Shown: piece by piece, positions 4,115 through 34,644 of the stretch
Layout: each line of letters begins with the position of its first letter
Position numbering within the stretch: the stretch's first letter is position 1
Notes under the pieces: model-generated
Database searches by the model: none
What the model was told of the DNA's origin: nothing
Seen by the model: only the letters and a program-made list of their open reading frames with translations
Position numbers and translations under genes: made by a program
Origin: Arthrobacter sp. Hiyo8
GTDB taxonomy: Bacteria; Actinomycetota; Actinomycetes; Actinomycetales; Micrococcaceae
Length of the DNA stretch: 64,000 nt
Assembly: GCA_001549895.1 (NCBI GenBank)
Contig: AP014719.1
Location: forward strand, 1,550,001 to 1,614,000
Direction of reading: 5' to 3'

Positions 4115-4149
4115 GGGCCCGTCCTTTCGATAGTCAGTACAACAATTGC

Positions 4150-5189
4150 TCAGGCGGCATTGCCTTCGCCCTGGAATTCAATGCCCACTTGGCGGCAGAT
4201 TTCATCGGCAACATCCATCGTCCGGATGGAGGAGGCCAGGGGCCGTTGTTGGGTTTCCGTCTCACCCGCGGCGACGGCGCGGGCCACCGCTGCGGCTTCG
4301 AAGTGCAAGCCTTCCACATGCCCGCCCACAGCCTCGTTGTGGCGAAGCCGCGTGCCGTCCGGGAAACGGAGCTCGAAACCGCCGGGCATATTGAAGGGGC
4401 CGTCGATGGTCAATGTGGCCTCGGAGCCAACGATCGTCGCCGCGGTGGGGGTGAAATTATGCAAGTGCGTATTCATCACGGCCTGGCCCCGCCCGTGAAT
4501 TGCATGATGGCGGAGAGTTGGCCGTTGACACCCGATTCGTGGGGCTCGCCGAAAGCGCTCAAGCGTTCCGGGGCGCCGAGTACTTCGGTGATGAGGGCCA
4601 GAGGGTAGGTGCCGAGGTCCAGCAATGGCCCGCCAGCCAGAGCGGGATCGAAGATGCGGTGGCCTCGTTCAAAGTGCTCACCGTATTCCGCCAGGACCGT
4701 CGTTACGGTACCCAGCGTCCCGGCGTCGAGCACTTGCCGGATCACGTCGAACTTCGGAAGGAAGAAGCTCCACATAGCCTCGGCGGCGAAAACGCCGGCT
4801 GCCTTGGCCCGCGCGGCGATATCCCGTGCCTGCGCGGCATTCAGGCCGATCGGTTTCTCGACCAGGACGTGTTTGCCGGCGTCGATGGCCATCAAAGCAG
4901 CCGCATGGTGGAAGTTGTGCGGCGTGCACACATACACAATGTCTATGTCCGGAGCCGCTGCCAGCTCTTCGTAGCTTCCATAGGCGGCGGGCACACCGAA
5001 AGCATCCGCGAACGCCTTGGAGCGGTTCAAGGAGCGGGAGCCGACGGCGGCGATCACTTGCGTTGAGTGGGCCTGCACCGATTCCATGAAGCGTTCGGCA
5101 ATCCACCCCGGACCCATGATCCCCCAGCGCAACGCCGGAGCGTCGCGCGAATCCGGCACCCTTGATACTGGCAGACCGGATGAAACCAT
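4150..5189 (-). CDS. Gfo/Idh/MocA oxidoreductase, dihydrodiol-dehydrogenase-like (one frameshift)
   Basis: About 346 residues after repair of a break near 4487 in a G/C run. The N-terminal Rossmann segment is GPGWIAERF, followed by VEKPIGLN and MWSFFLPKFD, then GGPLLDLGTYPLAL. This last motif replaces the HDFD signature of IolG and is typical of the trans-1,2-dihydrobenzene-1,2-diol dehydrogenase / glucose-fructose oxidoreductase-like branch. It shares one base with the stop of the upstream dehydrogenase gene and lies 35 bases from the next. It is likely an accessory dehydrogenase in the same polyol pathway; the substrate is unknown. Confidence 0.75.
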
Positions 5190-6183
5190 CAGTAGATCAC
5201 CTTTGTGTAGGCTCCGTCGCTGTGGAGCGAGCGGATCATCGCTTGTGCGAGCTGCGACGCGCGCAGGCCATCCTCACCCGTGGCGAGCGGCGCCGGCTCT
5301 CCCTTTTCGAGGGCGGAGATCCAGGCCTGAAGTTGCAGGCGGTACGCGTCGGCGAAACGTGGACGCCAGTCTGCGGGGATTTCGGAGCTGCGCTTCCCTT
5401 CCTGCCGGACATCGAGGGCGGCCGGTTCCGGGAGCGCGGCAGTGCCGAACTCCGAAACAACCTCGCACCGGGTGGTGTAACCGTACTGGGCGTTGAGGAA
5501 GAGTTCGAGCGTTGCCAGGGTGCCGTCGGCTGCGCGTAGGAGCATGAAGGCCGGGTCCCGCAGGTCACCCGTGCTGTACCGGGAGCTCCGCCCCGCTTGC
5601 CAGGACACCTCAGTGATGGGCGAATCCAACAGCCAGGGGATGATGTCCAGCTCGTGGATGGCCGAGTTGGTGATGGCGGACTCCGAGCTCGCGCCCGGTC
5701 CCGCGGATACGGTCCGGCTGGTGCAGTGGACCTGCAAAGGCTCGCCTTGCGTGCGTGCCCGGGTGGCTTCGCGCAAGGCGACATAGCCGGGATCGAAGCG
5801 CCTCATGAAGCCCATCGACAGCAGCCGCGCACCCGTTGCGGCCAAGAGGTCGGCTTCGGCCTCCACCACTTCGCGGCTTTCCAGGAGCGTGGGAGCCAAC
5901 GGCTTTTCGCACAATACCGGGTCATCGCTTCGAAGCATTCCAGCACCAGTCCCGCATGGGTGGAGTCATGGGAAGCGACCACGACGGCGTCAACGTCGCT
6001 GGAGTTGATCAGCTCGGAGGGGTCGGTGGTGATGCGTGCGGATGGCGGCGCCGCAGCTGCCGCACGTCCGGCGTCGAGGTCTGCCACGAAGGTGACTTCG
6101 GCCCCGCTGATGGTGGTGGAGAGGTTCCTGATGTGGTCTGCGCCCATGACACCGGCGCCAATAACGCCAACCCGGATCGGCAT
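5189..6183 (-). CDS. Inositol 2-dehydrogenase-like Gfo/Idh/MocA protein (one frameshift)
   Basis: Reconstructed length 331 residues. The chosen ATG gives MPIRVGVIGAGVMGADH, placing the Rossmann glycines at the expected position; upstream in-frame codons add only non-homologous sequence. LCEKPLAP and SAIHELDIIPWLL follow. The frame is broken near 5930, just before the EKP motif. It closely resembles the 16003-17014 gene in the GADH-type N-terminus and HE(L/F)D motif, so both belong to the IolG clade common in actinobacteria. It lies downstream of the ABC importer genes in a leftward operon. Confidence 0.8.
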
Positions 6184-6291
6184 GCTGTCTTCCCGTCTAC
6201 TACTTCGTGCACATTCCCGCAGTGGCATGGCGAGCGGGGCCCGTCCGGTTTCCGGCGGACCCCGTCTCCGTCCGCGCTGTCTCCCCGCGCG

Positions 6292-7244
6292 CTAAGCGTG
6301 CCGCGGGCTGCTTTCCCTTGAATTGTCAGCTGCGCCCGCGACGTCGGTCACTTCGGATACCCCGGCGACTTCGGCTTGGACTTCCTTGAGGGCTTGGGTG
6401 TGTCCGCCGAGTTGTTCGAGTTCGTGGGCGAGTTCGGCCAGTTCCGCGCCGCCGGCCATCTGGGCGGTGAGTTCGTCCAGGGTGATGTCCTTCTTGTCGT
6501 AGTAGCCGATGGACTTCCCGCGCTTGAGCAGCAGGAACCGGTCCCCGACCGGGAAGGCGTGGTGCGGGTTGTGCGTGATGAAAATGACGCCCAGGCCCGG
6601 TCGCGGGCCTGCAGGATGTAGCGGAGCACGACGCCGGACTGCTTCACGCCCAGCGCGGCGGTGGGTTCGTCCAGGATCAGCACCTTCGCCCCGAAGTACA
6701 CGGCCCTCGCGATCGCCACGCACTGGCGTTCACCGCCGGAGAGCTGGCCGATGGGCTGTTCCACATCGCGCAGGTCGATGCCCATCTGGGCCAGTTCCTT
6801 GAGCGTGATGTCCTTCATTTTCTGGACATCCATGGACTTGAACGGGCCCCAGCCGGTGGTCAGTTCCGAGCCGAGGAAGAAGTTCCGCCAGATCGGCATC
6901 AACGGCACCACGGCCAGGTCCTGGTAGACCGTGGCGATGCCGGCGTCCAGGGCGTCGCGGGGGGAGTTGAACTTCCGCTCCTCCCCCATGATCTTCAGCA
7001 CCCCGGCGTCGTGCTGGTGCAGGCCGGCGATGATCTTGATCAGCGTGGACTTGCCCGCGCCGTTGTCCCCCAGCACGCAGGTGACCCGGCCGTTGTCCAC
7101 GGCCATGGTCACGTCCCGCAGGGCGATGATGTTCCCGTAGTGCTTGCCCACCGCGTCCAGGGAGAGCAGGTGCACGGGGGTGTGGGTCAGCGGGTCCTTC
7201 TCATCCTTGAGCAGGGTCTGCTGGTCGATCTGTTTGGCATTCAT
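6292..7244 (-). CDS. Sugar/inositol ABC importer, ATP-binding protein (one frameshift)
   Basis: Energises uptake through the adjacent permease. The roughly 317-residue protein has one nucleotide-binding domain: Walker [10 protein letters not shown] (near residue 60), signature LSGGERQ, Walker [12 protein letters not shown] and a switch histidine in [11 protein letters not shown] single domain, unlike the double-domain RbsA/MglA, matches the FrcA-type branch of carbohydrate importers. The break near 6596 falls between Walker B and the switch region in a G run. Only 15 bases separate it from the permease gene. Inositol as substrate is inferred from context. Confidence 0.88.
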
Positions 7245-26438: not shown

Positions 26439-26686
26439 GGTTTAGTGTCCTTCTACGTCGAAGTAGTTTCTGTACAGCCGGAAACCACGGTGACCGCGAA
26501 AACCGGCTGCGGATAGGTGCGCATCGAACGGCTGCCAAGCAGCCGGTCACATTGCGCAAGTTCCTCTCGAACTTTAGCCCCCGGGGAGGCCAGCCGGTTC
26601 TACAGTACCTGTTAAGTGAGTAAGCACACACTTCTATCGACCGTAGAAAAACCCTATATGACGCGGTTTTCCGGCTTCAAGAGCCG

Positions 26687-29214
26687 CTACGAATCCAGTT
26701 TGGTCAGCGGCGCGTAACGCAAGAGCAGCCGCTTCTCGCCGACGTCGAACTTCACCTTCGCCACGGTCTTGTCCCCGGCGCCTTCGACGCCGATCACGGT
26801 GCCGTTGCCGAAGCTCGTGTGGTTCACTTTGTCCCCCACGACGACGGCGACCACTTCCTTTTGCGGCTGGACACGATTGCGTACGACGGCGGCCGGCACG
26901 TCCGCGTTGAAGCCCGCCGTATCGCTGGCTGCGGCCCGCGCGAGGTTCCAGCACCCCAGAAGGAGCCCCCGTAACGCCCGGAACCGATGGGGCGTTCCCC
27001 CAGCCGCTCACTTGGCGGGAGGTGCCCTCGCGCTTCCACTCCACGAGACCGGTAGGGATCTCCTCGAGGAACTGGCTGGCAGGGTTGTATTGGCTCTGGC
27101 CCCACATGCTGCGAACTTCCGAGCGGGTCACGTAAAGGCGTTTCCGTGCACGGGTGAGGCCCACATAGGCCAAGCGACGCTCTTCCGCCAGTTCCTTGGG
27201 ATCGGTTGCGGACCGCTGATGCGGGAAAAGTCCGTGTTCCATACCGGTCAGGAAGACAACGGGGAATTCCAAGCCCTTGGCCGTGTGGAGCGTCATGAGC
27301 GTGACGACGCCCATCCGCTTGGCCTCTGCGACGGCGGCGGCTGCGTCCTCGGAGGATCCTTCGGGAGCGTCCGGGATCTGGTCGGCGTCGGCTACGAGGG
27401 AGACTTGCTCCAGGAATTCACCCAGTGAGCCTTCGGGGTTGTCGCGCTCGTATTCCCGCACCACCGCCACGAGTTCGGCGAGGTTTTCCACGCGGGATTC
27501 GTCCTGCGGATCGGTGCTGGCGCGGAGCCGGCAAGGTACCCGGTCTGTTCCAGTACTGCTTCCAAAGCTGCCGCAGCCCCGGAACCCGAAGCCACTTCGG
27601 CCAGGTCATCCAGGAGTTTCACAAAGCCTAGGACCGCATTCACGGAGCGGGTGGCCATGCCGGGAGCCTGGTCCGCCTTGCGCGCCGCAGTCATGAACGA
27701 CGTGCGTTCGCGCTCGGCGAGCGCCGCGACGGCGCCTTCGGCACGATCACCGATTCCCCGCTTGGGTTCGTTGAGGACGCGACGCAAATTGACGTCGTCG
27801 TCCGGGTTCACCAGGACGCGAAGGTACGCGAGGGCGTCCTTGATTTCCTTGCGCTCGTAGAAGCGGGTGCCGCCCACCACTTTGTACGGCAGTCCGACGC
27901 GGACCAGGACGTCTTCAATGGAGCGGGACTGGGCGTTGGTGCGGTAGAAAATGGCGACGTCGCCGGGACGCAGGCCTTCCTCGTCCTGGAGCCGGTCAAT
28001 CTCCTTGGCGATGAACTGGGCTTCGTCGTGCTCGTTCTCGCCTACGTAGCCGATGATCTTCTCGCCGTCGCCCTCGGCCGTCCAGAGTTTCTTGTCCGGG
28101 CGGTTGGGGTTGCGCGAAATAACGGAGTTCGCCGCGCTCAGGATGTTCTGGGTGGAGCGGTAGTTCTGCTCCAACTTGATGGTGCGGGCTTCCGGGTAGT
28201 CCTTCTCGAATTCGACGATGTTGCGGATGTCCGCACCGCGGAACGCGTAGATGGATTGGTCGGAGTCGCCGACGACGGTCAGCTCGCTCGCCTGGGGACC
28301 CTCACCGACGATTTCGCGGACCAATGCGTACTGTGCGTGGTTGGTGTCCTGGTATTCGTCCACGAGGACGTGGCGGAATCGACGGCGGTAGGACTCCGCG
28401 AGCGCGGGGAAGGCCCGGAACATGTAGACGGTCTGCGCAATGAGGTCGTCGAAGTCCATGGCGTTGGCCTGGCGTAAGCGCTGGGTATAGCCCTTGAAGA
28501 CCTCGGCCACGGCTTGTTCGAAGGGTTCGTTGTAGTTGGCGCTCGAGGCGAACGCATCGTCGTCGATGAGCTCGTTCTTGAGGGCCGAGATCTTGTGCTG
28601 GATCGCTTTGGGCGCGAACTTTTTGGGATCGAGGTCCAGGTTCTTCGCTACGAGCGTGATGAGCCGCAAGGAGTCTGCGGAATCGTAGATGGAGAAGTTG
28701 GAGTTCAGCCCCACGTTGGTAGCTTCACGGCGCAGGATACGCACGCAGGAGGAGTGGAACGTCGAGATCCACATGGACTTGGCACGGGCACCCACCAGGG
28801 CTTCGATGCGTTCCCGCATTTCCGCGGCCGCCTTGTTGGTGAAGGTGATAGCCAGGATCTCGCCGTGATGGGCCCGCCTGGTGGCGATCAGGTACGCAAT
28901 GCGGTTCGACAGCACGCGGGTTTTGCCCGAACCGGCCCCGGCCACGATCAGCAAAGGGCTGCCGGCATGTTTGACGGCTTCCTCCTGCTGGGGGTTCAAC
29001 CCTTCGAGCAACGCCTCCGCAGACGGCAGGCCCGAGTGGCCGCCGTCTTGCCCACCGCCGGGCGTGCCGGCCCAGGACGCACCCCACCGGGCGCACTACC
29101 ACCGGGCGCAGCGCCGCTTCCGGCGCGTGAAAGCATGGCCGGAGCGGCCTTGGTGGCAGCTCGGCTTGCCGCTTTGAAGGGGCCATCAGCGTACGGGTCA
29201 AACAACATATCCAT
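26687..29214 (-). CDS. pcrA: ATP-dependent DNA helicase UvrD/PcrA (four frameshifts)
   Basis: Superfamily 1A 3'-5' helicase for repair and replication restart, about 843 residues. An N-terminal actinobacterial extension (MDMLFDPYADGPFKAASRAA) precedes LNPQQEEAVKHAGSPLLIVA and the Walker A VAGAGSGKTRV. Motif II is VDEYQDTNHAQY, motif III VVGDSDQSIYAFRGA, and later ones LEQNYRSTQNIL and VTLMTLHTAKGLEFPVVFL. The C-terminus is a Tudor-like SH3 segment, VNHTSFGNGTVIGVEGAGDK, ending at Leu-Asp-Ser. Breaks lie near 29030, 27525, 27000 and 26940. The last two fall in the poorly conserved linker before the Tudor domain. Confidence 0.94.
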
Positions 29215-30470: not shown

Positions 30471-31105
30471 ATGAATGACATGGCCAAGACCCCAGCCCAA
30501 CGCATCAAGAAGCACGGCGCCAATGCCGCTCTCCCCAGCACCACTTGCCGTCGGTGATCAATCCCACCACCCAGCGGTCGCCCGAGAAGGCCCAGAACAA
30601 CGGCCGCCTCATAGTGATTGCCGGGGTCGTGGCCAGCCTTTTCCTGTTTTGGTATGTGCACCTGCTGACCCTGAACCAGATGACCCAGTTGTCCGGCGGC
30701 ATGGCCATGCCCGATTCCCTCATCGGCGGGTTCTCCACCGATTACGTCCACCAATTGCATGGCGCCATGACGGACGACGCCCGCGGACAGCTCAGCTACA
30801 TCCACAAGACCGCCGGAACCCTGTTTCCGCTGATCTTCGGTTTCACCTGGCTTCTGCTCATCGGCACCAATGTGGCCGGAAAGGCACTGCGCTGGACGCT
30901 GTGGGCTGCTCCCCTGCTGTTCGCCGTGGTCCGTTTGTGGAGCAACGTGGCGGTGGACGCCGCGCTGGGATCGGCAACGCCCGACGCCGGCCAGGTGGCT
31001 TTGGCTTCCACGCTCACCGTTGTGGGCTGGGTACTGTTCCTGCTGAGCCTTGCGGCCGGCGGTGCGGCTGTGTTTGTGGGGCGGCGGCGTTCGAAGAGCG
31101 CCTAG
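30471..31105 (+). CDS. Four-helix integral membrane protein of unknown function (one frameshift)
   Basis: About 211 residues starting MNDMAKTPAQRIKKHGAN, a basic cytoplasmic leader, with one base lost near 30544. Four hydrophobic helices are visible: LIVIAGVVASLFLFWYVHLL, LFPLIFGFTWLLLIGTNVAG, LRWTLWAAPLLFAVVRLW and LTVVGWVLFLLSLAAGGAAV, and the tail is basic (GRRRSKSA). A 45-residue polar loop between helices 1 and 2 probably lies outside. I do not recognise the family. It ends by overlapping the convergent TPR gene by four bases. Confidence 0.7.
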
Positions 31106-32189
31106 CAGAAGCGCCGAACGCAGCCAACGCCCGCACGCGCTACCCTGGCCCAGAATCGGGCTTCCGAATCAGGCCCCGGCTCAAGCATCTCCCGGGCTTG
31201 GAGGGCACGCTGGTGGGCGCCGGCTTTCTCGAAGCGATCGGCCGCTTCGACCAGGCTTTCTTTCGCCGCCTGCTTGTTCCCGGTACCGGCTTGGGCCCGC
31301 GCCATCAAGAGGAATACCTCGCCTGCCATCTGCGCGGGCAGTTGGTCAGCGCTGCGACTGATTTCGTTCAGCAGCTCAAGCGCCGCCCCGGCGTCTCCTG
31401 CCAGGTAGTTCCAATGCGCGCGGTTGAGGCGAAGCAGGAGAATTTCCTCTTCGCTGCCGCCGACGACATCCGTGGCAAGCTCCGCCCGTTCAATGCACCG
31501 AAGGGTGGCCGCATCGGCCACTTCAGCGGCCAGCCTCATCGCGGCCGAGGCTTTGTTGAACTTGGCCAGACATCAAGGTTCCGCGAAGGGGAAAAGGTTT
31601 CCGCGGCAAGCTCATGGTAGTGGAGGCCTTCAGCTACCTTGTCGCAGAGGAACGCCACATTCCCGATGACCCAGTACGCCTTGCCGGCCAACTGGTCATC
31701 CATTTCATCAGAAATTCTCGCCGAGAGGGACAGGCACTCCTCCCACGCCTCCTCCAGTTTGCCGGACTCGCCAAACGCGGCGATCAGTGCCTGCCGCGCA
31801 TGGACGTCGATTTCCATGTCTGCGTCATCATCGACCAGTCCAACTGCCGACGCCGCAGCCGAGGTGGCCATCTCCAACAGCCCTTCACCCGAAGGGAGTT
31901 CGCCATCAAGATGAGTGCCCGGGCCGGTGCTGGGGTGAGGCGACAGCCAACGATGCCTCGGAAAGGGATCTCGCCAGCGCAGTGCTGGCAGCGAAATCAC
32001 CTGCGTCGAGAAGATTCTCCGCTTGGAGGAAAGTCATGTTCCACCATCCGGCGGAATCGCCCTCATCGAGGGCAATATCGGCGGCCGAGCGCGCACCATC
32101 GGCAGCCTTGGCGAAGTCATGGCTGGCCGGTGACCCCTCGCTTGCAGTTCCGCAGCGGCGTACGACGGCGCAACCTTCTTTTCTCCCAT
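31102..32189 (-). CDS. TPR-like repeat protein, possible peptide-binding regulator (four frameshifts)
   Basis: About 363 residues after restoring bases near 32130, 31920, 31872 and 31566. The ATG at 32189 has GGAG just upstream (MGEKKVAPSYAAAEL). The protein is nearly all helical, with repeated alanine-rich pairs such as WWNMTFLQAENLLDAGDFAA, LEEAWEECLSLSARI, KAYWVIGNVAFLCDK, LLRLNRAHWNYLAGDAGAAL and EVFLLMARAQAGTGNKQAAK, a tetratricopeptide pattern. No helix-turn-helix or catalytic motif is visible. It is divergent from a secreted peptide gene with three short repeats, an arrangement reminiscent of Rap/Phr-type TPR receptor and peptide pairs of Firmicutes. That comparison is an inference. 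Confidence 0.7.
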
Positions 32190-32272
32190 GGCTCCATTAT
32201 GTCCCTGAGACACTCCGCCCATGATTCGGGCGAGCGTTTAGCATGTTTCTCCACCGTCCGGACGGACACTGA

Positions 32273-32300
32273 TGACACGGCGTGTCGTTACTCTTATAAT
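32273..32300 (+). promoter_or_regulatory. Promoter of the ATGWWPN-repeat peptide gene
   Basis: A consensus TATAAT at 32295-32300 is preceded at 16 bases by TGACAC (32273-32278). The expected start site is near 32307, giving a leader of about 55 bases with GGAG (32350-32353) before the ATG. This is one of the best -10 boxes in the window, which suggests substantial expression. Confidence 0.7.
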
Positions 32301-32360
32301 GAGCGTGCTTCACTTCGTTCACTCCAGTCGCATCAGTCACATATCATCAGGAGCTTTCGC

Positions 32361-32612
32361 ATGAAAAGAACTCTCGCCGCGCTCCTCGCGGCAGCAGCAA
32401 TCTTGCTCGCAGGAATTACCGGCTCGGCAGCTGTGTCCGCCAGCAGCCAGAGCCCGTCACAGGATTCGTCCATAGCCACGGGCTGGTGGCCGAACTTCGC
32501 ACAGAACTCGGCAGAGGCCACTGGCTGGTGGCCGAACTCCACCACTCAGGGTTCGCCTCAGGCGACTGGCTGGTGGCCGAACTCCGCCACCAACTCCACT
32601 CCCTCCAACTAG
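32361..32612 (+). CDS. Secreted repeat peptide with three ATGWWPN units
   Basis: 83-residue intact protein. MKRTLAALLAAAAILLAGIT forms a classical Sec signal peptide with an AxA-like cleavage site after residue 27 (AVSA). The mature part of about 56 residues is Ser/Asn/Gln-rich and contains three copies of ATGWWPN, at residues 39-45, 53-59 and 68-74, separated by 7-8 polar residues. It has no cysteines. The gene has its own promoter (TATAAT), ATCAGGAG before the ATG and a perfect terminator, so it is a monocistronic small-protein gene. It is divergent from the TPR gene. I do not recognise the family; a processed multi-copy signalling peptide, an antimicrobial or a surface-binding peptide are all possible. 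Confidence 0.85.
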   Translation: MKRTLAALLAAAAILLAGITGSAAVSASSQSPSQDSSIATGWWPNFAQNSAEATGWWPNSTTQGSPQATGWWPNSATNSTPSN

Positions 32613-32621
32613 CAATACCTG

Positions 32622-32652
32622 AAAGGCACCGGACCCAAGGTCCGGTGCCTTT
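32622..32652 (+). terminator. Rho-independent terminator of the repeat-peptide gene
   Basis: Fourteen-base perfect arms AAAGGCACCGGACC (32622-32635) and GGTCCGGTGCCTTT (32639-32652) with a three-base loop begin 10 bases after the stop codon. The symmetric A and T ends allow it also to stop transcripts of the convergent GGDEF-EAL gene. Confidence 0.9.
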
Positions 32653-32688: not shown

Positions 32689-34208
32689 TCAGGTGCCTCG
32701 CAACAGTTCCGCGAATTTATCCGCCGCCATGGGCCGGCCAAAGTAATACCCTTGGCCACTGGCGCAGCCCAGGCGGGCAAGCTCAGCCGCCTGCTCCGCC
32801 GTTTCGATACCCTCGGCAACAGCCTGCATCCCGCAGGCGTGAATGAGCTGGAGAACAGCCGCCACAAAGGCCCGCTCCTTGTCGTCCGTGCCCAGCCCTT
32901 GGATGAGGGAGCGGTCAATCTTGACCACGTTGACGGGAAGGCTGCGCAGGTAGCTGATGGACGAATAGCCAGTCCCGAAGTCGTCGATTTCCAGCCGGAT
33001 ACCGAGTCGCCGGAGGCCGGTCAGAGAGTATTTGTCGATGTCGCTTCCGTTCACGGCCATTGACTCCGTGAGCTCGATGACCAGCTTGGATGCCTCCACT
33101 CCGGTTTCGGCGAGCACTTCCCGCACATGCTCGATCAATTCCAGGCTTTGCAATTCGGTGGTGGAAATATTGACCCGCATGCTGAAGTCTTCGTCCATGC
33201 CCGGACCGTCCTGCCACTCGCGCAATTGCTGCATCGCCCGCCGGAGAACCCAATAGCCAAGATCGATGATGATGCCGGTTTCCTCGGCCAACGGGATGAA
33301 TGCATCCGGCATCAACAATCCCCTATCGGGGTGGTTCCACCGCACCAGCGCTTCAGCGCCTTCAATCCGCCCCGAGGCCAACTCGACAACAGGCTGGAAA
33401 TGGAGGACCAGCTGATCTGTCCGGATGGCTTCACGCAGTTCCGAGATCATGAGTCCTTGGAGCCGGCGCGCGTACAACAAAGCCGGTTCGAAAACCCTGA
33501 CGCTGCTCCCCTGCTCGGCCTTTGCCGCATACATGGCCGTGTCGGCTTCCATGACGAGGTCGTCCACGGACTGCCCTGGTTCGGCGACCCGGAGCCCGAT
33601 GCTGGTTCCACAGATGATCCGGACTTCGCCGATGTCGATGCTCTCACCGACGGCCCGAAGGATCCGCTTGGCAACGCCACGCGCATGCGCCGCATTGGAT
33701 TTGGGCAGCATCACGGCAAATTCGTCCCCGCCGAGCCTCGCCACCATGTCAGTGTCGCGGACCGCTGCGAGCAAGCGCCTGGCGGTAACCTTCAAGACGG
33801 TATCCCCGGCGCCGTGCCCCAGAGTGTCGTTGATCCCTTGAATGAGTTCAAGTCCAAAACGAGCAACGCGGGCGGGAGCTCACCCCGCTCGGATTCGACG
33901 AGTTCATGGTTCAGCGCCCTTTCGAGTGCCGTGCGATTCGCCAACTGGGTCAGCGGATCAGTGAGCGCCATCCTTTCGAGTTCGATCTGGGCCTCGCGCA
34001 GCATGGCAGTCCGGCTTTCGACCCGCTCCTCGAGCTCCTGGTAAATGGCTTGAAGATCGTCGGCCATGAGGTTGATCCCAGTGATGACGGCAGCCACTTC
34101 GTCACGCGGGCCGGAGACCGGGATCCTCGTGCTGAGGTCTCCGTCCGCGATCCGGACCACCCCTTCAACGAGGGCAAGCAGCCGCGGGTCCTGGGGCTCA
34201 TGATTCAC
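32689..34208 (-). CDS. GGDEF-EAL cyclic-di-GMP protein (one frameshift)
   Basis: About 506 residues. An N-terminal HAMP-like/coiled segment (residues 10-70) leads to a GGDEF domain (LTDPLTQLANRTALERAL, and an intact RLGGDEFAVM) and an EAL domain with EGAEALVRWNHP, NISTTEL, ELTES, IDDFGTGYSS and EGIETAEQ. Both active-site signatures look complete, so it could make or degrade c-di-GMP. The break near 33815 lies before GGDEF. The GTG start overlaps the previous gene by 11 bases. No membrane segment is seen, so the sensor input may come from the coupled upstream protein. Confidence 0.9.
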
Positions 34209-34644
34209 GGTGGTGCTCTCTCAACCAGTCACGGGCTTCCGCCTCGGACGTGAAGAACCGTCCCGGAAGGGAGCCTGGCTTCGCGCGTAGGAGAAAGTGT
34301 GCAATCACCCGGTCCACCGGGCTCTCCCCCAAGAGGGCGCAGGCCGAAATAGCCACGGAATTCGTGTAGGTCAGGCGCGCGTCGTCGGTGACGGACAGTA
34401 CTCCGGTCACCCTGAGCAGAAGCGGGAGCCGCCGTCCGTCCGCAAACATACGAACAGCCGCCGCGGCCGCCTGGGCTTCGGGTGAGCGGACTACGCTGTT
34501 CGGTGGCAGGGTGACCTCGATAATGCCGTCCTCCGCCAAGTCAACGGTGATCTGATCGGCAGGGACCATCACGTCTTCAGGCGAAGCATCCAGGGCATCA
34601 TCGGGAATCCGCGAATCCCGGGCGGGGAGTGTCTGGGAGCTCAT
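34198..34644 (-). CDS. STAS/SEC14-like small protein of unknown function
   Basis: Intact 148-residue soluble protein. After a polar N-terminus (about 30 residues) comes QITVDLAEDGIIEVTLPPNS, then RLPLLLRVTGVLSVTDDARL, SVAISACALLGESPVDRVIA and FFTSEAEARDWLREHH. The alternation of strands and helices and the final helix resemble STAS/SpoIIAA-SEC14-like proteins. It overlaps the GGDEF-EAL gene by 11 bases, so the two are probably translated together and this may act as the input or partner of the c-di-GMP enzyme. The fold assignment is tentative. Confidence 0.65.
   Translation of the reverse strand: MSSQTLPARDSRIPDDALDASPEDVMVPADQITVDLAEDGIIEVTLPPNSVVRSPEAQAAAAAVRMFADGRRLPLLLRVTGVLSVTDDARLTYTNSVAISACALLGESPVDRVIAHFLLRAKPGSLPGRFFTSEAEARDWLREHHRES

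Follow-up and report, generated by a model that had tools for sequence, protein, structure and literature searches.

Two divergent genes in the window, the 64,000-nucleotide stretch of the Arthrobacter sp. Hiyo8 contig AP014719.1 that was analyzed, quite probably encode the precursor of a peptide pheromone and the cytoplasmic TPR protein that would be its receptor; in Actinobacteria, the two would act together as the RRNPP systems do in Firmicutes. Sequence comparison also makes it likely that the finding is larger than first described, and that the pair represents an actinobacterial RRNPP-like family of peptides and receptors. A wider reading, held with somewhat less confidence and still favored, is that of an Actinomycetota-wide peptide language in which Sec-type Trp-Pro precursors would be sensed by XRE-TPR receptors, forming the missing actinobacterial arm of RRNPP; in Arthrobacter and its relatives, one receptor branch would have lost its DNA-binding domain and been rewired to c-di-GMP, leaving two channels (GWWPN and GNWPDP) in each cell.

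The propeptide gene (32361..32612, plus strand) encodes 83 amino acids that begin like a signal peptide and include three ATGWWPN units, on the same strand at 32475..32495, 32517..32537 and 32562..32582; the units begin at residues 39, 53 and 68, spaced by 14 and then 15 residues, and these coordinates confirm the preliminary description of an 83-residue open reading frame with three identical units at a spacing of 14–15. The Sec signal claimed for the protein stands as a putative signal, with a charged start and a hydrophobic core recognized by a simple rule only. The claimed TATAAT promoter and perfect terminator were both located, the former as a sigma-70-like consensus match (ATGACA-N17-TATAAT; 32272..32300, plus strand), the latter as a perfect 14-bp hairpin, likely a terminator, 3′ of the propeptide stop (32622..32652, plus strand); an AGGAG read from the sequence before the ATG (32349..32353, plus strand) is the likely ribosome-binding site. 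The precursor had zero Pfam matches at E-values up to 1; a protein database yielded four matches among 28 candidates, the best of them named only as a hypothetical protein. TRF reported a single 45-bp array of 2.7 copies in the gene. The three units share their amino acids and differ in their DNA, and the 43 units in 10 close orthologues of this precursor comprise three amino-acid forms and 23 DNA forms; this disparity points to selection on the peptide more than to a fresh DNA duplication. Chance or a DNA-level repeat as the origin of the units was rejected on the same counts.

A palindrome, GACACGGCGTGTC (32274..32286), spans the −35 element and the spacer of the propeptide promoter and is a candidate operator. 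Of 78 TPR-peptide intergenic regions, 10 contain it exactly and 14 when one mismatch is allowed, a tolerance at which none of 1560 shuffles matched; the full palindrome is confined to the nearest relatives. The whole genome holds one exact copy, at the window locus, and 21 one-mismatch matches, little more than the 12 in a reversed control. Another candidate operator, the inverted repeat GTGACTT-N5-AAGTCAC, was noticed just 3′ of the −10 element, in the 5′ leader of genes with two IGWWPN units, in several of the loci L014–L022 and their relatives.

The TPR receptor gene, of HTH-less type, occupies 31102..32222 on the minus strand, divergent from the precursor gene. The TPR-like protein previously noted on the opposite strand is thus present as TPR sequence, but its gene is broken into several frames in this assembly (minus-strand reading frames 32034–32222, 31536–32000 and 31102–31539). 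The profile matches at the locus cover profile positions 25–94, 106–215 and 215–348, in order, and intact HTH-less orthologues in relatives have about 340–360 amino acids. The neighboring HAMP-GGDEF-EAL gene (32689..34208, minus strand; Pfam), a conserved neighbor and the proposed target, is interrupted near position 33792 in the assembly; the DUF7793/SpoIIAA-like gene (34198..34644, minus strand; Pfam) is a conserved neighbor as well. SBP_bac_5 (Opp-type) genes are present in the same genome, and several of them, elsewhere in it, appear as adjacent fragments. Since TPR, GGDEF-EAL and SBP_bac_5 genes are all split, the breaks are read as assembly indels, and the frame breaks in the receptor gene look like assembly indel errors. 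A UvrD-like helicase gene in the window (26634–29011; assigned by sequence) is likewise split by frameshifts, and the contamination of the assembly is given as 6.47 percent.

To survey the pairing from the receptor side, one genome of each species was searched with the TPR profile A2, which gave 239 stretches with relatives, and the best 80 of these 239 were kept. The 80 loci come from Arthrobacter, Pseudarthrobacter and Paenarthrobacter plus one presumed contaminant, and were picked without the peptide; as A2 was built from receptors beside peptides, they belong to that family by construction. A narrow first filter ([WYN]WP and an A-x-A rule) found a peptide in 66 of the 80 loci; under a wide filter that accepted any xxWP and dropped the A-x-A rule, a divergent small Sec-type xxWP reading frame lay within 700 bp in 78 of these best 80 of 239, compared with a background, measured under the same wide filter, of 92 matches in 1.91 million strand-bases of the remainder of the loci, or 0.034 per 700 bases. 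In one exception (L110) the peptide gene lies 1.6 kb from the TPR gene; in the other (L169) the peptide found goes with a second receptor, and none was found for the first. The contaminant (L178) is a contig whose record names Vibrio cholerae strain 35D but whose locus is Arthrobacter-type in content, and the record is presumably contaminated or mislabelled; it was counted in the 80-locus pairing, neighbor, receptor and tree sets and left out of the co-variation set.

From the peptide side, clustering of the neighbors of 41 peptide-chosen loci showed that in most of them the gene divergent from the peptide falls into a single TPR cluster, across unlike neighborhoods. TPR sequence was found within 1.5 kb in 32 of the 41 loci and was absent in nine; peptide homologues without a TPR neighbor, which the preliminary description had named as evidence against the pairing, thus do occur, in a minority. 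Four of these nine peptides (L062, L077, L078, L080) have an OmpR-type regulator on one side and a GAF-HisKA-HATPase kinase on the other; these GWWPN peptides may be orphan signals or belong to a second sensing route. A TPR neighbor by chance was rejected on the observed versus the expected pairing in the genus, class and phylum sets. The receptor-peptide link, which had originally been drawn from position, is now backed by the TPR-chosen and the peptide-chosen loci, by a paralogous HTH-TPR pair in the same genome, and by co-varying motif and receptor distances. The last of these was assessed in the 76 loci that have peptide, receptor and GGDEF-EAL gene. Motif distance correlated with receptor distance at r 0.46 and with GGDEF-EAL distance at 0.30, and receptor and GGDEF-EAL distances correlated with each other at 0.91; the partial correlations with motif distance were +0.47 for the receptor, a value reached in 0 of 2000 permutations that ignore phylogeny, and −0.31 for GGDEF-EAL. 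As phylogeny is ignored in the permutations, a co-variation of peptide motif and receptor beyond the GGDEF-EAL neighbor is no more than suggestive.

Six-frame searches uncovered many more members of the peptide family than the protein database did. A search of 395 family-level genomes returned, as its best 30 loci, precursors that all combine a signal-peptide-like start with one to six [WY]WP copies, and 28 of these 30 belong to the same genus; the peptide profile A1 matches 166 of 206 genus genomes at E 0.01, including a weak tail of matches that were not vetted singly. The precursors of the 78 TPR-chosen loci carry a single copy in 39 cases, two in 21, three in six, four in eight, five in three and six in one, and the xWPx cores are identical in 36 of the 39 multi-copy precursors. 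Paenarthrobacter aurescens TC1 (L164) has an intact pair, its precursor carrying two IGWWPN units. Trp-Pro is invariant in 76 of 76 loci under a filter that demanded Trp-Pro, and the residue before it is W in 66 loci, N in five, Y in three, D in one and S in one. Second-tier precursors (L062–L080) have 41–61 amino acids and end in IGWWPN, GWWPD or GWWPH, or one residue short.

The same genome contains a second pair, in which a precursor with four IGNWPDP units diverges by about 140 bp from a 428-amino-acid HTH-TPR protein with HTH_31, HTH_3 and TPR_12 above the Pfam cut-off, and a third peptide of 57 amino acids that ends in QIGWWPN and is without a TPR neighbor. An order-level search found two receptors in seven of eight same-genus genomes among the matches listed. 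The HTH-TPR receptors have about 400–470 amino acids, and where those of the genus were found with a peptide, the precursors carry two to four IGNWPDPM-like units. The promoter TTGACA-N19-TACAAT occurs in 14 of 14 HTH-TPR loci, with ATTTTACAAT over its −10 element in all 14 and as the inverted repeat ACATTTTACAATGT in seven; a genome scan with this promoter box and with GACACGGCGTGTC (one exact copy each) yielded no regulon that could be named. Among 141 distinct receptors, identical ones being counted once, a divergent WP precursor accompanies 87 of 90 receptors without HTH and 32 of 51 with HTH; at 19 of the latter 51 the precursor search found none. A quick tree of 117 receptors, for which the tool warns of long branches, places the HTH-less receptors as one clade inside the HTH-TPR forms, with the exception of L208. 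This receptor reads as HTH-less but has an HTH-like start in another frame, and one HTH loss is therefore counted, though the tree needs two label changes. On the quick tree, the HTH-less receptors would descend from HTH-TPR forms by a single HTH loss. Two receptor-peptide pairs stand in tandem in L176 and L180 (about 4121–7080), with VGNWPD-/SGNWPD-type and IDDWPH-type peptides, possibly a duplicated and diverging pair.

The two receptor types differ in their surroundings. Within 2.5 kb of the 80 TPR-chosen HTH-less receptors (the best 80 of 239) lie a HAMP-GGDEF-EAL gene in 75 loci, a DUF7793 gene in 65 and a GAF-histidine kinase gene in 34; near 12 HTH-TPR receptors of the genus each of the three counts is zero, where every one of the 12 loci offers under 3 kb of sequence to one side or to both. 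In L091, two bases separate the receptor stop from the GGDEF-EAL start, an operon-like arrangement. On the strength of this arrangement and of the conserved GGDEF-EAL neighbor, a Rap-like action on c-di-GMP signalling is proposed; the HAMP-GGDEF-EAL neighbor, and hence c-di-GMP, may tentatively be named as the most likely target of the HTH-less receptor, a proposal slightly more open to doubt than to belief.

Beyond the genus, 56 of the 345 genomes in a class-level set, representing 28 of its 126 genera, match the HTH-TPR profile A4 at 1e-15. Thirty HTH-anchored loci were kept, and 15 of them have a divergent Sec-type WP reading frame within 450 bp; after removal of three loci of the own genus the count is 12 of 27, versus 0.008 expected per locus, with no such frame within 450 bp at the other 15, among loci that are not independent in that L249–L251, L256 and L257 are close relatives. 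The peptides include forms with three GGSWPT (L235), two DIEWP (L238) or two DIGWP units (L241), LNWPKCC (L240) and PDWPVMCC (L249, a type that belongs to the Jiangellaceae by protein matches); the near variants GWNHPG (L248) and GIGNTCC (L252) at the same place were left uncounted. In a phylum-level sample, A4 matches 20 of 246 genomes; 16 of these matches lie outside the class, two at full length and 14 in the N-terminal part only. Seven of the 16 loci outside the class, where L286 and L287 are again close relatives, have a divergent WP frame of 28–35 amino acids within 450 bp, versus 0.014 expected per locus (for example, ...TANWPKH in L283, ...MANWPHVP in L284 and ...GAPWPPCC in L275), and nine have none within that distance. 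For the phylum-level scan the shortest reading frame was lowered from 30 to 28 amino acids; the class set gives 15 of 30 under either limit.

Several observations accompany these distant loci. Outside the class (L273–L287), divergent frames of 28–35 amino acids approach a minimal signal precursor: they stop only a few residues past the hydrophobic stretch, with WP or FP in the tail. In L247, L259, L258, L249–L252, L256 and L257, the short Sec-type peptide near an XRE-TPR gene has two cysteines at its C-terminus (VWCC, WPxMCC, GNTCC); some of these peptides are convergent, not divergent, and modification or metal binding is conceivable. On a Streptomyces plasmid (L272; NZ_CP108097.1, 199099–206064), a related HTH-TPR gene lies among genes for an acyl carrier protein, a thioesterase and a phosphopantetheinyl transferase; no peptide partner was found there, two nearby small reading frames being unconvincing. 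A mobile-element system was considered and rejected, as there was one phage record over 58 residues, one Streptomyces plasmid record and no confirmed viral contig.

In the proposed mechanism, the precursor would be exported by Sec, several short peptides that contain xGWWPN would be cut out of it by extracellular proteases and brought back into the cell by an Opp-type permease, and the re-imported peptides would bind the TPR groove of the receptor. The HTH-TPR paralogue would be a transcription factor switched by binding of the IGNWPDP peptide and probably acting on the shared promoter; the HTH-less receptor would respond to its peptide, as Rap proteins do, by a change in its contact with a protein target. 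If true, linear-peptide signalling would be common in Arthrobacter and recurrent across a phylum of soil and natural-product bacteria, with cell-cell communication there open to direct tests by synthetic peptides of 6–8 residues; one genome would hold two separate peptide codes, and the family would show how an HTH-TPR regulator becomes a partner that lacks the HTH and lies beside a c-di-GMP gene.

The peptide could also be a signal that is sensed elsewhere, by the neighboring GAF-histidine kinase or an unlinked protein, with the TPR protein only controlling precursor production. The kinase gene within 2.5 kb in 34 of the 80 loci would suit such a role, as would the four peptides lodged between regulator and kinase among the nine that lack a TPR neighbor; yet the kinase is missing within 2.5 kb from 46 of the 80 TPR-chosen and from all 12 HTH-TPR loci, and the partner common to unlike neighborhoods and to other families is the TPR protein, which makes sensing elsewhere unlikely.

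Short Trp-rich peptides can be membrane-active, and bacteriocins commonly have divergent regulator genes; the precursor might by this analogy be a secreted antimicrobial or toxin-like peptide, with the TPR protein as regulator or immunity factor. This is a still less probable account, given that x-W-P is all there is to the code, the rest of the tail being polar or variable, that the smallest forms keep a handful of residues past the hydrophobic start, and that the conserved neighbors examined include no transporter or immunity cluster. Finally, the repeats could belong to a surface peptide, wall-bound or structural, with the TPR gene as a conserved neighbor that has no functional link to it. 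Since the GGDEF-EAL and DUF7793 neighbors of the receptor are conserved in the genus too, part of the synteny may be plain inheritance; however, the pair is kept in unlike neighborhoods within the genus and persists in other families and classes despite divergence of the remaining sequence, and a structural peptide appears very improbable. The reading as a pheromone precursor with its own TPR receptor is preferred over all three.

Predicted structures of both receptor types are all-helical TPR superhelices that match TPR structures; TPR Pfam families score above the cut-off in the HTH-TPR protein and below it in the HTH-less receptors. In the PDB sequence list for the HTH-TPR receptor, the highest-placed natural protein is PlcR (E 8.6e-9), through the HTH only; it ranks tenth in Foldseek, and PlcR, NprR and Rap entries occur in the fold lists. 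As a caveat, the fold matches are to TPRs in general, and since LGN/Pins stands above the RRNPP entries in the fold searches, fold alone indicates a peptide-binding TPR and not RRNPP. The accessible text of a survey of 7,974 Firmicutes and 47,982 viral genomes applies five RRNPP criteria, namely a propeptide of 10–100 amino acids, Sec secretion (SignalP), a receptor of 250–500 amino acids, TPRs and adjacent genes (PMC10075063). Four of the five features are found here: propeptide size (mostly 28–110 amino acids, with a maximum of 121 in L107 and 83 in the window), receptor size (in intact orthologues, the copy in the window being split), TPRs and adjacency; Sec secretion is assigned by the simple rule only. 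As judged from their sequences, the TPR/WP-peptide pairs fit the published RRNPP signature. The same text places RRNPP receptors in Firmicutes and describes Actinomycetota as signalling typically by small molecules (PMC10075063), and the accessible part of another source names cyclic or modified peptides and butyrolactones for Actinobacteria (PMC4748050). No Trp-Pro peptide/TPR system of this kind is described in the accessible parts of PMC13220807 and PMC4748050; a literature search that covered titles and the starts of abstracts, with preprints and most subscription journals outside its coverage, returned no report of RRNPP-type pairs in Actinomycetota and no paper with the string GWWPN.

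Compared with PlcR-PapR and other HTH-TPR receptors of the RRNPP group in Bacillota, the HTH-TPR pairs share an XRE-type HTH followed by TPRs in a protein of 250–500 amino acids, and an adjoining small precursor of Sec type that would yield the pheromone from its C-terminal part; likeness in sequence to PlcR is seen through the HTH only. They differ in the Actinomycetota host, the x-W-P code, the divergent orientation and, in the genus, two to four copies per precursor. ComR-ComS of Streptococcus likewise has an HTH-TPR receptor, the ComR HTH is among the PDB sequence matches, and ComS is a Trp-containing pheromone, a likeness to the WP peptides. The double-Trp comparison with ComS made in the preliminary description was not borne out, however; only Trp-Pro is invariant, under the filter that required it, whereas the preceding residue may be W, N, Y, D or S, and a ComS-like WW box is therefore rejected as the code. 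The Rap subfamily lacks an HTH and holds its protein target in an N-terminal three-helix bundle. The HTH-less receptor has no HTH either; its model opens directly with paired helices (16–30 and 34–50) and aligns to RapI 14–375. Differences from Rap-Phr of Bacillus are the up to six copies per precursor, the HAMP-GGDEF-EAL neighbor, which is no known Rap target, and the higher fold scores of LGN/Pins than of Rap; tandem pheromones also occur in Phr precursors (PMC11343458). Judging from the quick tree, the actinobacterial branch seems to have lost its HTH independently of Rap.
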